This document shows positions 5,866 through 14,114 of a DNA stretch of 37,790 nucleotides, piece after piece. The notes under the pieces are model-generated. The model did no database searches, had not been told where the DNA came from, and worked only from the letters and a program-made list of their open reading frames with translations. Both the position numbers and the translations under genes were made by a program. Origin of the DNA: Calditrichota bacterium. Lineage in GTDB: Bacteria > Calditrichota > Calditrichia > Calditrichales > Calditrichaceae. Location of the stretch: the NCBI GenBank assembly GCA_024278755.1, contig JAJRSO010000025.1, forward strand, positions 1 through 37,790, in the 5' to 3' direction. Each line of letters starts with the position of its first letter. Within the stretch, counting starts at the first letter, position 1.

Positions 5866-7224
5866 CTATTTTACTCTGAAAAATTCGATTCTGCGGTTTT
5901 GGGCCCGGCCGTCACGCGTATCGTTGGGAGCGATGGGGTTTTCCGGTCCAAAGCCGATTGCCGAAATGCGTGCGGCATCGATTCCGTTTTCTACGAGATA
6001 GGCTTTAACGGATTCGGCGCGGCGTTTTGATATTTTCATATTGCCGTTGTAACTGCCAGTATTGTCGGTGTATCCGCGCACTTCCACTTCCAAATCCGGA
6101 TTTTGCGTCATGGTACGTACAACCTTATCCAGAATGGTTTTGGAATTCGGTGTGAGTTTGGCGCTACCGGTGGCGAAATTGACTCCTTCCAGAACAATGG
6201 CCTGGCCTTTTTCTACCGCTATTTCCGGCTTGGTGTCGGGACAGCCGTCGGCGTCTTCGTAGCCGTTCATTGTTTCCGCCTCGTTGGGACATTTATCATC
6301 AACGTCTAAAATACCGTCATTATCGTTATCCGGATCCGGAACGCCGTCTTCGTCCATATAGCCGTCTTTGTCTTCCGCTTCATCGGGCGCTTTGTCGTTA
6401 ACGTCTAAAATACCGTCCTTGTCGTTATCCAAATCGGGCACGCCGTCCGCGTCTTCAAAACCGTCGCGGTCTTCGGGATCGTTGGGCGCTTTATCAATTT
6501 GATCGGGAACGCCGTCCATATCGTTATCCAAATCCGGTGCGCCGTCTTCATCCTGAAAATTATCAAAGTCTTCGGCATGTAGCGGGTCTTTGTCTTTAAC
6601 ATCGGGAATTCCATCGCCATCCGTATCTTTTGCTTTACCAAGATACAGCGAAAGACCGGCGCCGAGCGTCATAAAATTATCATTATTGCCTTCTTTTTTC
6701 AGCCCATACATATTATCAATGCCAGTTAAATGAAGCAGAGCCTCGGCATCAATGGCAAGATAATCGGTTATGAAATACGAAAATCCGAATCCCACAGGGA
6801 TCGCGCTGTTAATTTTTTCAAAAGTATTGAAATCGATGCTTTGTAGCCCGTGTCCGTTTTTCCCTTTGGGATAGATATCAAAGTATTCAAATCCCGCAGT
6901 CAGGTAAGGATTAAGTTTTGACGCCGGAAACGGTTTGAGACGAAGCAGCATTGTATAATTCCAAATGTTAGTCTTAAAAAAATCAGTCCCTTTTTCTGCC
7001 GTTAAATAGCCTTTTCCATAAATAAATCCAATACCCAGATTGTCGGTAAACCAATACTGCAGGTTCACATCATAGTATCCGCCGAAAGGGGAGTCGTCAA
7101 TGTCGCCGTAGTAATTGGATACCCCGCCTTTTACACCGATTCCGAATTTTCCTCCGGTTTCATCGGCGAGCGCCAGGTTCGTAAATAACAGAAATGAAAA
7201 TAAGATAAGTGTTAGCTTTTTCAT
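5866..7224 (-). CDS. OmpA-family outer-membrane protein with thrombospondin type-3 repeats
   Basis: 452 residues. A signal peptide ends near LALA. An N-terminal eight-strand-type barrel follows (about residues 25-190), then a run of Asp-rich calcium-binding TSP3 repeats (DTDGDGIPDVKDKDP, then DLDNDMDGVPDQIDKAP, with several more of about 36 residues each). The C-terminal OmpA domain (about 340-452) carries the peptidoglycan-binding pattern GYTDNTGSYNGNMKISKRRAESVKAYL with RAQNRRIEF at the end. The protein should anchor the outer membrane to peptidoglycan. Three near-identical repeat units make the DNA itself locally repetitive (6290-6600). A strong ribosome site AAGGAGG precedes the ATG, and it is monocistronic with its own terminator. 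Confidence 0.93.
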   Translation of the reverse strand: MKKLTLILFSFLLFTNLALADETGGKFGIGVKGGVSNYYGDIDDSPFGGYYDVNLQYWFTDNLGIGFIYGKGYLTAEKGTDFFKTNIWNYTMLLRLKPFPASKLNPYLTAGFEYFDIYPKGKNGHGLQSIDFNTFEKINSAIPVGFGFSYFITDYLAIDAEALLHLTGIDNMYGLKKEGNNDNFMTLGAGLSLYLGKAKDTDGDGIPDVKDKDPLHAEDFDNFQDEDGAPDLDNDMDGVPDQIDKAPNDPEDRDGFEDADGVPDLDNDKDGILDVNDKAPDEAEDKDGYMDEDGVPDPDNDNDGILDVDDKCPNEAETMNGYEDADGCPDTKPEIAVEKGQAIVLEGVNFATGSAKLTPNSKTILDKVVRTMTQNPDLEVEVRGYTDNTGSYNGNMKISKRRAESVKAYLVENGIDAARISAIGFGPENPIAPNDTRDGRAQNRRIEFFRVK

Positions 7225-8673: not shown

Positions 8674-10017
8674 TTACAGTTTATACTTTTCGAGACGGTA
8701 GCGCAGAGTATCTCTGGTAAGTCCTAACAATTGTGCGGCACGCGCTTTGTTGCCGTTTGTCTTTGAAAGAGCGGAGAGTAATAGTTTTTGTTCCACTTCT
8801 TCCAGCTTTATTCCGCCGTCCGGCACCGACCATGTTTTGGCATCGGATGTTGTTCCGGATTGAAAAACCAAATCATCTTTTTTGATATATTTTGCATTGT
8901 TAAAAATCATAGCCCGCTCAATGAGGTTACTCAGTTCACGCACATTGCCCGGCCAGGAATATTCCAGCAGCGCTTGCCGGGCGTCTTTTGTAAAGCCCTC
9001 GGCTTTTTTATTAAAGCGCAGATTAAACAGATGCATAAAATGCTCGGCCAGCAACAGTATGTCTTCTTCCAGCGATCTTAGCGGAGGTAGTTCGATTTGA
9101 ACGACATTTAAACGGAATAAGAGATCTTCCCGAAATTTTTTTTCGCTTACTAATTGCTGTAAATTTTTATTTGACGCGGTAATTAAACGAAATTCAACCT
9201 GTTGCTCACGGTTTGAACCCAGTCTCCGGAAACGACGGGATTCGATGATATGTAAAAGTTTGGCCTGCAAGGCCAGCGGAAGTTCGGCTATTTCGTCTAA
9301 AAAAAGCGTACCTTCGTGCGCTTCTTCCAGCAGCCCCTTTTTACTGGCGGCTGCATTGGTAAAGGCGCCTTTTTCGTAGCCGAATAATTCGGATTCCAGC
9401 AGATGTTCCGGAATAGCGGCACAGTTAATTTCGATAAACGGTTTTCGGGCGTTGGACGAAAGCGTGTGGATTTCGCGGGCAATTAAATTTTTGCCGGTTC
9501 CGCTTTCACCGCGGAGCAGAATGTTAATGTTGGGGATTTGCGCGATCTGTACCACCGTCGTTCGTAAGGTTTCGACCTTTTTCGAATGGCCGATTAAAGC
9601 GGAACCTTCGCTGCTTTTTGCGGCAAGTCTGGTTTTTAGTAAACTGATTTCGTTTTCCTTTTGTACAAAACGCTGTTTTAAAATAGCTTCGGAAGTTACC
9701 TCCCATACAAAACAAACAACCTGTGCGGCAGAAGAGGCAAAATGATGCAGGGAAAGATTTAAATAAACAGCGTCCTTTTTTTTACCAGGCCGGTTGATAT
9801 TTTCAATATAAAATGTTTTTTGATGCCCCCGGGCTATTTTCCGGATTATCTCTTCCAGGCCAACCGTTTCGGGAAAACATTCGTTTAGCAGGGAAGAAGG
9901 CTGCCGGCAATATCGCCGGAAGATATTATTGGAAAAAAGTAACGTTCCGTTTTCGTCAAACAGGGCAAGGCCCGTATCCCGTAATTCAAATAAATATCCG
10001 GTTGATTTTGTGATCAT
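8674..10017 (-). CDS. Sigma-54-dependent activator (PAS-like sensor, AAA+, Fis HTH)
   Basis: 447 residues. The N-terminal part (about 1-115) looks like a PAS domain (TGLALFDENGTLLFSNN); there is no receiver. The AAA+ domain (about 140-380) shows Walker A GESGTGKN at 170-177, GTLFLDE (Walker B), FREDLLFRLN and WPGNVREL. A Fis-type helix-turn-helix closes it (KARAAQLLGLTRDTLRYRL). The loop that contacts sigma-54 reads GAFTNA, not the usual GAFTGA. It should bind upstream enhancers and remodel sigma-54 polymerase. The ATG overlaps the stop of the upstream GTPase gene (ATGA), implying translational coupling, so its signal probably concerns the GTPase/OmpA system. Targets are not visible. Confidence 0.92.
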   Translation of the reverse strand: MITKSTGYLFELRDTGLALFDENGTLLFSNNIFRRYCRQPSSLLNECFPETVGLEEIIRKIARGHQKTFYIENINRPGKKKDAVYLNLSLHHFASSAAQVVCFVWEVTSEAILKQRFVQKENEISLLKTRLAAKSSEGSALIGHSKKVETLRTTVVQIAQIPNINILLRGESGTGKNLIAREIHTLSSNARKPFIEINCAAIPEHLLESELFGYEKGAFTNAAASKKGLLEEAHEGTLFLDEIAELPLALQAKLLHIIESRRFRRLGSNREQQVEFRLITASNKNLQQLVSEKKFREDLLFRLNVVQIELPPLRSLEEDILLLAEHFMHLFNLRFNKKAEGFTKDARQALLEYSWPGNVRELSNLIERAMIFNNAKYIKKDDLVFQSGTTSDAKTWSVPDGGIKLEEVEQKLLLSALSKTNGNKARAAQLLGLTRDTLRYRLEKYKL

Positions 10018-10514
10018 AATAATCCGGCCAGAGCGATAAATGATTCTTCTACATTGTTGTTTTCTTTGGCGCTGGTAATAAAATACGGTAATTTATTGTC
10101 TTTTGCCCAGTCCGTATACGTCTTTTGTACGCCTGCGGATACATCAACCAAATCGGATTTAGTCGCGCAGAAAACCAGACTTGCCTCAGGGTTTATCGTT
10201 TTAAAACGGGTGAGAATGGAAGAAAGATGCGTAAGCGAATCGGGACGGGTTAGATCGGCTGTCAGGATGGCCCCCGCGCTACCGGCATAATAATTTTGTA
10301 TGGCCTGCGAAAACTTTTCGTGTCCTTCGATATCCCAGATTAAAAAATCATATTCGGTTTCATTGCTATCCGAAACCCGTTTCCGGGAGATATTTACGCC
10401 GATGGTTGTGAGATAACTTTCTTCGAATGAGTTAAGAACAAAACGGCGGATCAGGCTGGTCTTTCCAACCCCGAAAGAACCCAGCAGGCAGATTTTCTTT
10501 TTAATGACAGCCAT
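10014..10514 (-). CDS. Ras-like small GTPase
   Basis: 166 residues, a bare G domain of Rab/Ras size. P-loop GSFGVGKT at residues 12-19, switch I Thr in YLTTIG, switch II WDIEGHE, G4 as TKSD (118-121) and G5 as SAK (148-150). It resembles eukaryotic-like Ras-superfamily GTPases found in scattered bacteria (the MglA/Rup groups) more than Era/Der-type GTPases. The residue matching Ras Gln61 is His65. I chose ATG at 10514, because GAGGTGA lies at good distance; the GTG at 10520 sits too close to that site. It begins 2 bases after the stop of the OmpA/longin-like gene and ends overlapping the sigma-54 activator, so it is in the centre of a coupled operon. Confidence 0.93.
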   Translation of the reverse strand: MAVIKKKICLLGSFGVGKTSLIRRFVLNSFEESYLTTIGVNISRKRVSDSNETEYDFLIWDIEGHEKFSQAIQNYYAGSAGAILTADLTRPDSLTHLSSILTRFKTINPEASLVFCATKSDLVDVSAGVQKTYTDWAKDNKLPYFITSAKENNNVEESFIALAGLL

Positions 10515-10516
10515 GC

Positions 10517-12088
10517 TCACTTCACCTCAAAAGTTACACACCGTTTTGATGCCAGCCCATCCATAGAGGAGATATCTGTTTCTGTTCCGTAACTGCCGAA
10601 TCCGGTGGTTACAATTTTATCTGCTTGTACTCCGTTTGCAACTAAAAACCGTCTTACGTTTTCGGCTCTCTTTTTAGAGATTTTCATATTTGCATCCGGT
10701 GCTCCTGTAAAATCGCTAAAGCCGTATACGGTGAGCAGAGAAAAATCGGCCTTGGTTAGATGACCGGCCAGTTGTTTTAATAAATCTGAATAGGCCGAAT
10801 CAATAACGGCGCTATTCTTTTTAAAATAAACGGAAATTTTTCTAACGTAGTTTTGTATTGCGGAGTGATAATCAAGATGATCCACAATAACTGTGTTTCC
10901 GGAAACTTGTGCCGCTGCCTTTGCAATGGAAAGTGCGTCCGACTCCGAAGGTACGGATCCTTCAAGAAATATTAAATTGTCATGAAGCACGATCTGAACG
11001 GAATTGAGTTGAGCGGTTAGTTGCGGATAGAATTTTTTAATATACGTTCTAAATTTATGTTCATTAAAACGAACGCTTTCGGTGGATGTGTCGGTCACTG
11101 CAGGCGGTGTGGATTCATTGGGCCATAAGAAATAAACGGCAAAACTTATAAGCGCTAAAAATAATAGATAAACGACATAACGGCCAAAATGAGGGTTCGT
11201 TGTCGGAACAGATGCATCGGTAGTAAATCCCAGCGCTTCGGACATGATACCGGGAGCCTTGGAAAAAGGTGTAACGTCTCCCGAAAAACCACGAAGTTCG
11301 GTTGTAAATTCCTGATGGCATCGATTTTCCAGCAAATGGATATGTTTGTAAAATTCAGGCGGCGCAATGCCGGATATTACAACGGCAAGATAGGCGTACC
11401 GGCCGTCTTCGAGATAAATATGCAGGTCGTCATATTCGATTACATTTAAATCCCGTTCCGTTTCCGTTTCAAAAGCCGATTTCGAAAAAGCGCGGATAGC
11501 GGTGAGCATTCCGCTCAGTAATTCTTCATTCGCCTGGATGCTTTGTGTGTCGGGCTGAAAATGAGCCAGCAGGATTCCCGTTTCTTTGTGGATATAAAAA
11601 ATATCATGAAGTTGAAAAGGTAATGATTCGTTTAGCAGAATCTCTGCGGCGGATAATCCGGAAATTTTTGCCTGAACTTTTTTACGGAACAGACGGAAAC
11701 TCATAGCCTGATCGATTTTTTCATTAACCGTTTTTGCCAGGTTTTTCATGGCTTCGGCCACTGCTTTGCGAATGGTGGATCCGATAACCGGATACAGCGC
11801 ATCGATAATCGTTTCTTTCGCCTCCGAAATTTGCCGCTTAATCGCAGCGCCCATCACCGGGGCCAGGGCATTGGCCATTTCGCTTTTGGAATCACTAATC
11901 TTTTTGCTAAGCAGATCGGCAATAGCCGGCTCGAGGGTAGCAATTAGAGCCTCTTTGTCGCGTAAACTGAGTTTCAGCGTTTCGAGTTCGGCTTCGAGCA
12001 CCTGTATTTTATCCCGGTCTTCAGTAAGCAATATTTCTTTTAAAAGCTGAAACGCCTGGGTATTATCTGCCTGCATAACAGAGGTCAT
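10517..12088 (-). CDS. Coiled-coil / longin-like / TM / OmpA multidomain protein
   Basis: 523 residues. Residues 8-145 are helical and coiled-coil-like and include two related units (ALAPVMGAAIKRQISEA and ALYPVIGSTIRKAVAEA). Residues about 150-270 form an alpha/beta block resembling a longin/roadblock-type domain (DIFYIHKETGILLAHF, then AYLAVVISG). A single membrane span is at 303-322. Beyond it lies a BON-like segment (about 340-405), then an OmpA C-terminal domain (415-523; GFSDFTGAPDANMKISKKRAENVRRFL) expected to bind peptidoglycan. So a cytoplasmic N-terminus that could meet the GTPase is joined to a periplasmic cell-wall anchor. The gene starts 9 bases after the coiled-coil gene and ends just before the GTPase start. 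Longin and BON assignments are inference; TM and OmpA are clear. Confidence 0.82.
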   Translation of the reverse strand: MTSVMQADNTQAFQLLKEILLTEDRDKIQVLEAELETLKLSLRDKEALIATLEPAIADLLSKKISDSKSEMANALAPVMGAAIKRQISEAKETIIDALYPVIGSTIRKAVAEAMKNLAKTVNEKIDQAMSFRLFRKKVQAKISGLSAAEILLNESLPFQLHDIFYIHKETGILLAHFQPDTQSIQANEELLSGMLTAIRAFSKSAFETETERDLNVIEYDDLHIYLEDGRYAYLAVVISGIAPPEFYKHIHLLENRCHQEFTTELRGFSGDVTPFSKAPGIMSEALGFTTDASVPTTNPHFGRYVVYLLFLALISFAVYFLWPNESTPPAVTDTSTESVRFNEHKFRTYIKKFYPQLTAQLNSVQIVLHDNLIFLEGSVPSESDALSIAKAAAQVSGNTVIVDHLDYHSAIQNYVRKISVYFKKNSAVIDSAYSDLLKQLAGHLTKADFSLLTVYGFSDFTGAPDANMKISKKRAENVRRFLVANGVQADKIVTTGFGSYGTETDISSMDGLASKRCVTFEVK

Positions 12089-12097
12089 CCGGTTAGA

Positions 12098-12454
12098 TTA
12101 ATCGGTTTGGTTGTCTTTTAAACGCGTACTTAGTTCACGGAACCAACTGCTTAGTTCTGCCCTGCTTGCAGCCCTGCTTTCCAGGGAGTCTATTTTTCGA
12201 ACCAGGTCGTCACGGATTTCACTTAGCTCTTTTCGCAAACTTTCGGCCGAATCACTGGCTGTTTTTTCTATCTTGCTTTCAAGAGCCGTATTACGTGATT
12301 CCAGTTCTGCCAGCTTTTTGTCCGCTTCGGAAGCGCTGTGTTCCAGATGTGCTATTTTCTTTTCCAGGGTTTTAAAATGCTGCTCGATTTGGTTTATTGT
12401 CTCACCAAAAATCAGTTCGCGTATCTGTCCGATGCTATTGGGATTCTCTGCCAT
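12098..12454 (-). CDS. Small coiled-coil protein, first gene of the GTPase operon
   Basis: 118 residues, almost entirely heptad-like: an N-terminal IGQIRELIFGETINQIEQHF, then long Glu/Lys/Ala-rich coiled coil to the end. No signal peptide or membrane span. The RELIFG stretch at residues 12-17 stands out as a possible docking motif. Its place at the head of a four-gene coupled operon with a coiled-coil/OmpA protein and a Ras-like GTPase suggests a scaffold or adaptor for that complex; this is inference. GGAGAG lies 4 bases upstream of the ATG. The gene diverges from the PLP-enzyme gene across a 184-base intergenic region. Confidence 0.8.
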   Translation of the reverse strand: MAENPNSIGQIRELIFGETINQIEQHFKTLEKKIAHLEHSASEADKKLAELESRNTALESKIEKTASDSAESLRKELSEIRDDLVRKIDSLESRAASRAELSSWFRELSTRLKDNQTD

Positions 12455-12638: not shown

Positions 12639-14114
12639 ATGTTTAATTGGAACTGGGAAATCGAAAATCAGGAATACCTGCAAAATACAATCAAACGCTG
12701 TAAACGCGAAAATATTTTACTGCCTTCTTTTGAAGAACTAAAAAAGCCGGAAACGATTCATCCGAAAATAATTGAAGCGCTGAAAAAAATCGGCCTTCAA
12801 GAAACACATCCGCTCAATCTATTTCGTATTAACTGGCGCAACGATCCGGACGGAGGAGGGATTGGCGGGATTAATTTTCTGGAAATTCCACGGGAATTAA
12901 CGGGGATCAAAGCGCGGGTAATCGGACTGGTGGGCAAGTTTTTTCCAACCGGCGCTCATAAAGTCGGCGCTACTTACGGATGTCTGGCGCCTGCGCTGGT
13001 GAGCGGACGCTTTAATCCCGAATATCATAAAGCGGTCTGGCCTTCCACCGGAAATTACTGTCGTGGCGGAGTGTTTAATTCCAATTTATTAGACGTACAT
13101 TCCGTGGCTATTCTTCCGGAAGAGATGAGCCAGGAGCGCTTTAACTGGCTGCGTGAACGAACCGACGAGGTATACGCCACACCGGGCTGCGAGAGCAATG
13201 TAAAAGAGATTTACGATAAATGCCACGAGCTGGAAGCCCAAAGCGATGAATATGTGATTTTCAACCAGTTCGATCAGTTTGGCAATTCCATCTGGCATTA
13301 TGAAATTACCGGCTTTACCATTGAAGCGCTGTTTAACCAGCTGCGGACGTCCAAATCCCGTTTAAGCGGTTATGTGAGCGCCACCGGCTCGGCCTGAACC
13401 ATCGCCGCCGGTGACTACCTGCGCACCATCGAACCGCGCGTAAAAGTGCTGGCTTCCGAGGCCCTGCAATGTCCCACGCTTCTGGCCAACGGTTTTGGCG
13501 GGCACCGCATCGAAGGCATCGGCGATAAACACGTGCCCTGGATTCATAATGTAAAAAATACCGATATGGTCAGCGCCATTGATGACGAAGATTCCATGCG
13601 CCTGCTGCGTCTCTTTAACGAAGCGGCCGGACAGGAATATCTGAAAAAACAGGGGATTGATGCGGCGCTAATCGAAAAGCTGCCCTATCTTGGTATTTCA
13701 TCCATTGCCAATCTGCTTTCGGCAATTAAGATGGCCAAATACTACGAAATGAGTGAGAACGACGTCATCTTTACCGTGTTTACCGATTCGGCGGAAATGT
13801 ATTTATCCCGCCTCGAAGAGATGAATACGGCTCGCGGCGCCTATTCGTTGCAGCAGGCGCAGTTGGACGAGCAGGCTTGCCTGAGCGGACAGAAGACCGA
13901 TAACCTGCTGGAACTGACGTATACCGATCGCAAACGGATTCATAATCTAAAATACTTTACCTGGATCGAGCAGCAGGGAAAATCGGTGGATGAACTGAAT
14001 GCCCAGTGGTACGATGAAACTTACTGGAATGAACGATTCTCCATCGTTCCGCAGTGGGATAAAGAAATAAAGGCTTTTAATGAAAAAACCGGCTTAAGCA
14101 GAAAATATTTATAG
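12639..14114 (+). CDS. Fold-type II PLP-dependent enzyme interrupted by an in-frame TGA
   Basis: Read through one TGA (13395-13397, codon 253), this is a 491-residue PLP enzyme of the tryptophan-synthase-beta / cysteine-synthase fold. The likely Schiff-base Lys is K108 in PTGAHKVG, followed by the substrate loop STGNY. The phosphate-binding loop reads SATGSA-stop-TIAAG, where family logic expects Gly (GSAGTI). Both halves stay in one frame and the downstream half has no independent start or ribosome site near 13398, so this is one gene with a stop, not two genes. TGA is a normal stop elsewhere here (stops at 25877, and for the genes ending at 10517 and 10014). GGGGAG lies upstream of the ATG. 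Substrate unknown. Options: nonsense mutation GGA to TGA, sequence error, or recoding such as selenocysteine. Confidence 0.8.
13395..13397 (+). other. In-frame TGA in the PLP phosphate-binding loop
   Basis: The stop falls at codon 253, between GSA and TIAAG. It lies in the loop of a 7-bp inverted repeat (CACCGGC 13382-13388 / GCCGGTG 13407-13413). A weaker 4-bp stem follows (GGTG 13410-13413 / CACC 13424-13427). Neither looks like a standard bacterial SECIS, in which a hairpin directly follows the UGA and presents a G in a small apical loop. Confidence 0.85.

Follow-up and report, generated by a model that had tools for sequence, protein, structure and literature searches.

The single in-frame TGA that interrupts a PLP-enzyme gene in this draft genome is best explained as an uncorrected G>T/C>A base error of the assembly rather than as a feature of the living organism, and we hold this reading with good confidence. 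It is almost certainly neither a real recoding feature nor a new selenoprotein. The gene lies on the plus strand at 12639..14114 of the window, the whole stretch of 37,790 nucleotides that was analysed, and encodes a fold-type II PLP enzyme (PF00291, cysteine-synthase-like) of 491 codons plus stop in which the TGA is codon 253. The frame runs from an M at 12639 through 252 codons to the TGA at 13395..13397 and then through 238 sense codons to a TAG at 14112; both these coordinates and the solitary in-frame TGA, as given in the original prediction, are borne out by sequence and translation. The read-through product is a single protein that aligns with its relatives over the whole length, and its PALP domain (PF00291, residues 103-331; score 40.4 against a cut-off of 35) spans the stop. 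Membership of the cysK family (TIGR01139) is not supported, the score of 94 bits falling below the curated cut-off of 350.95. In the alignment with solved cysteine synthases, whose loop reads GTGGT, the TGA takes the place of the second Gly; this is the PLP-phosphate loop, which reads GSA-TGA-TIAAG here. The gene is present in a single copy with one lesion, and the possibility that it is a paralogue or a degraded duplicate was ruled out on the grounds that the genome holds only this copy. Its neighbours on the minus strand, at 8674-12454 of the window, encode a sigma-54 activator, a Ras-like small GTPase and an OmpA-domain protein, and the first three genes overlap by a few bases in an operon-like manner.

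The comparison with relatives indicates what has been lost at this codon. Every relative covering codon 253 carries GGN, and Gly is found in 108 of the 108 aligned sequences, which were drawn from 80 related loci of public genomes and from matches in related whole genomes, some genomes being in both sets. Neither Cys nor TGA occurs at the codon in any of these 108 relatives, so that the search for the same TGA in related genomes, proposed beforehand, came back empty, while the expectation of a Gly at this site was upheld. In the same-genus genome the protein shares 93% amino acid identity and has GGA at codon 253, as does the next relative, whose protein is 81% identical. Of all alignment columns in the gene with at least 95% conservation, codon 253 is also the only one that the window does not match. 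Relative to the same-genus gene, changed codons divide into synonymous and nonsynonymous as 88:16 before the TGA and 63:16 after it. With constraint equally strong on either side of the TGA and no other such break in the gene, the stop must be either very recent or not real. An old pseudogene was rejected for the same even constraint and because all other conserved residues are kept.

Whether the organism itself may read UGA as selenocysteine (Sec) is a reasonable question. The genome encodes SelA (C77, 427 bits), SelB (C77, 339 bits), tRNA-Sec (C53, 68 bits) and two SelD proteins, so the complete selA, selB, selC and selD set is present. One SelD gene (C53) itself contains a single in-frame TGA (L090:1531, CAGU), in the context LVSCAG-TGA-ASKINPELL. 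The other SelD match (C44, L089) lies within a 743-codon open frame and is perhaps a fusion. Downstream of the SelD TGA we found a hairpin, AUCCGG[AGUUA]CUGGAU, with its loop 19 nt from the UGA and a G at the second loop position; it fits the published bSECIS geometry (PMC13188914), although its energy of -5.2 kcal/mol misses the -7.5 cut-off of that paper. Because the sel genes are present and the SelD TGA is followed by a SECIS-like hairpin, UGA is probably decodable as Sec in this organism. Formate dehydrogenase was considered as a second control and set aside, the two matches in the genome having no in-frame stop and scores below the family cut-off. Nothing on Sec in Calditrichaeota came out of a search of the literature.

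Insertion of Sec at the PLP-enzyme UGA by this machinery is nevertheless very improbable, and every criterion other than the presence of the machinery disfavours it. Homologues with Cys are known for almost every selenoprotein, and most of the rare families have a Cys origin (PMC13188914, PMC1794560), whereas the relatives here have Gly throughout, at a small phosphate-loop residue with no redox role. A TGA seen in a single sequence is a candidate only, given that sequencing error is possible (PMC1088965), and the requirement formulated in the same work, that the TGA be kept in at least one other sequence, finds no support in any of the 108 relatives (0/108). The region in which a bacterial SECIS would be expected (13398..13469, plus strand) holds no stem in which 4 or more contiguous pairs close a loop of 3-9 nt, 16-37 nt away from the UGA, whereas the SelD control does show the geometry. 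The folding energy of the 60 nt downstream of the TGA (-17.0) ranks 16th among 109 homologues, every one placed above it having Gly, and synonymous shuffling gives as stable a fold in 18% of cases. A 7-bp inverted repeat (CACCGGC/GCCGGTG, 13382..13413, plus strand) does frame the codon as had been noticed, with the UGA in its 18-nt loop, but as a recoding signal it carries no weight: its geometry is not that of a SECIS, and comparable repeats number 150 in the window, or about 5.9 per 1476 bases, so that the 3 found in the PLP-enzyme gene are at chance level. Sec at this site was therefore rejected on the homologue residue, the SECIS test and the lack of conservation of the TGA. The original prediction had leaned the same way, and on this point it is reinforced by the Gly in all relatives, the missing SECIS and other premature stops of G:C>T:A type in the assembly. 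It had also held that Gly in all relatives together with an absence of selenocysteine genes would dispose of Sec; the former was found, but the search for selA, selB, selC and selD that it recommended, a sound idea, recovered all four, and because they are present, missing sel genes are unusable as an argument against Sec. It might still be imagined that Sec or another residue enters at the PLP-phosphate-loop Gly through an unrecognised type of bacterial SECIS in this one species, a scenario to which we give hardly any credence; were Sec to prove true, the exchange of a Gly for Sec would be out of the ordinary.

The other in-gene stops of the assembly are more informative. A scan based on codon bias, looking for stops flanked on either side by coding sequence, was run over 1.23 Mb (about 1.19 Mb of other stretches plus the window, about 31% of the assembly); its 36 hits were sorted by eye and the rate obtained is approximate. 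The majority mark the normal boundary between two genes, a start codon lying only a few codons away, and 12 are in-gene stops: 6 TAA, 5 TAG and the PLP-gene TGA. Homologues for the others were taken from the same genus and family and the aligned codon was read; names ending in '-like' given below for interrupted proteins reflect the look of the sequence rather than a search. A CNNM/CorC protein (L149:6140-7429, minus strand), identified by its domains, has a TAA at 6445 where six relatives have Glu (GAA or GAG), and the cysteinyl-tRNA synthetase gene cysS (G000:C25:70194-71630, L236) has a TAA at L203:10626 where three relatives have Glu, encoded by GAA. The further TAA and TAG stops (L137:8987, L148:15126, L170:1453, L171:226, L175:7735, L179:1249, L182:2822, L204:11579 and L133:4168) fall at Glu or Ser where homologues exist. 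Homologues have Glu at the stop of a small-GTPase-like (MglA-like) protein (four homologues), of a protein with the motif MREEEKLARDVYL (three), of a histidine-kinase-like protein (the three closest matches), of a GspE/PilB-like ATPase (two, with Val in one distant homologue) and of a chemotaxis-receptor-like protein (two distant homologues); they have Glu or Ser in a TPR-like protein and Ser or variable residues at two further stops, and for the L133 stop no homologue covers the site. The residue lost at the 11 sites with homologues is thus Glu at 8, Ser at 2 and Gly at 1, some assignments, namely the two Ser sites and the chemotaxis-like site, resting on one or few homologues. A G:C>T:A change can account for all 11, with G>T at the Glu and Gly codons and C>A at the Ser codons if these were ancestrally TCG, and at none of them is C>T or G>A at CAA, CAG, CGA or TGG needed. 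The PLP gene therefore shares this class with 10 other, unrelated conserved sites; the probability of 11 of 11 falling in one class is 2e-6 under equal rates per class, a post hoc and rough figure. The assembly has no full-length cysteinyl-tRNA synthetase gene besides the interrupted cysS, which is otherwise intact, and it is difficult to see how a cell could live with a TAA in this gene. As an aside, the interrupted cysS is a marker of base errors in this draft genome. When 0.8 Mb of a complete relative, assembled as a single contig, was scanned in the same way, no clear in-gene stop emerged; the hits were nearly all junctions, apart from a few in short, low-scoring frames.

These observations would fit a simple course of events, in which GGA became TGA by a G>T substitution in a Gly codon of an otherwise intact, conserved gene, in an assembly whose scattered in-gene stops can all be put down to G:C>T:A, the type of change that oxidised guanine is expected to cause; the PLP-enzyme gene would then be one among those strikes. 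Oxidation ex vivo is a documented source of G>T sequencing artefacts (PMC12390751), and we infer that the origin was technical (oxidative damage or low coverage) rather than in vivo. The runner-up is a genuine and very recent nonsense mutation or strain polymorphism, which would make the gene a very young pseudogene or place the stop in only part of the population; nonsense mutation and sequence error had both been put forward from the start, and both still stand. A real mutation is consistent with a single-copy gene carrying one lesion, and the equal constraint on the two halves, seen in comparison with the same-genus gene, means that any lesion must be very recent. It would, however, require numerous other nonsense lesions just as young and all of a single transversion class, among them the one in the only full-length CysRS, and we regard it as unlikely. 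A MutY-deficient mutator was ruled out by a mutY that is present and uninterrupted, a check confined to that gene. Part of the pattern could also come from real mutations if the population was mixed.

Another possibility is that the TGA is passed by some other programmed readthrough, by bypass or by a change of code, which would account for a downstream constraint equal to that upstream. However, TAA and TAG interrupt other genes as TGA interrupts this one, the sites concerned being Glu, Ser and Gly, and with all three stops found at differing residues no single decoding rule fits; a code change was discarded for this reason. Moreover, TAA, TAG and TGA all serve as ordinary terminators between adjacent genes, in agreement with the earlier view that TGA is a true stop in the neighbours and a code change unlikely, and no Rfam element was found in the window. 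We consider readthrough of this kind highly improbable, and an assembly base error remains the preferred explanation.

A word of caution follows for selenoprotein searches: a Sec system and G>T assembly errors together yield convincing false selenoproteins, and before UGA recoding is invoked, a check should be made for genes broken by TAA and TAG through this class of change. The PLP gene resembles a bacterial selenoprotein gene such as the SelD gene of this genome (L090) in having a TGA in frame and a full Sec system in the genome, but SelD has CAG-TGA-A at the active-site position followed by a hairpin, while in the PLP gene a hairpin of this kind is missing and no homologue has Cys. With cysteine synthase (O-acetylserine sulfhydrylase; TIGR01139, PF00291) the enzyme shares the fold-type II PLP domain and a loop that aligns to GTGGT, although at 491 aa it is longer and extends beyond the domain at both its N- and C-terminal ends. 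The guanine-oxidation sequencing artefact (G>T/C>A) is usually diagnosed by read-strand asymmetry, whereas the likeness seen here is drawn from the assembled sequence alone: nonsense changes that, at sites with homologues, are all compatible with G:C>T:A and are scattered in conserved genes.
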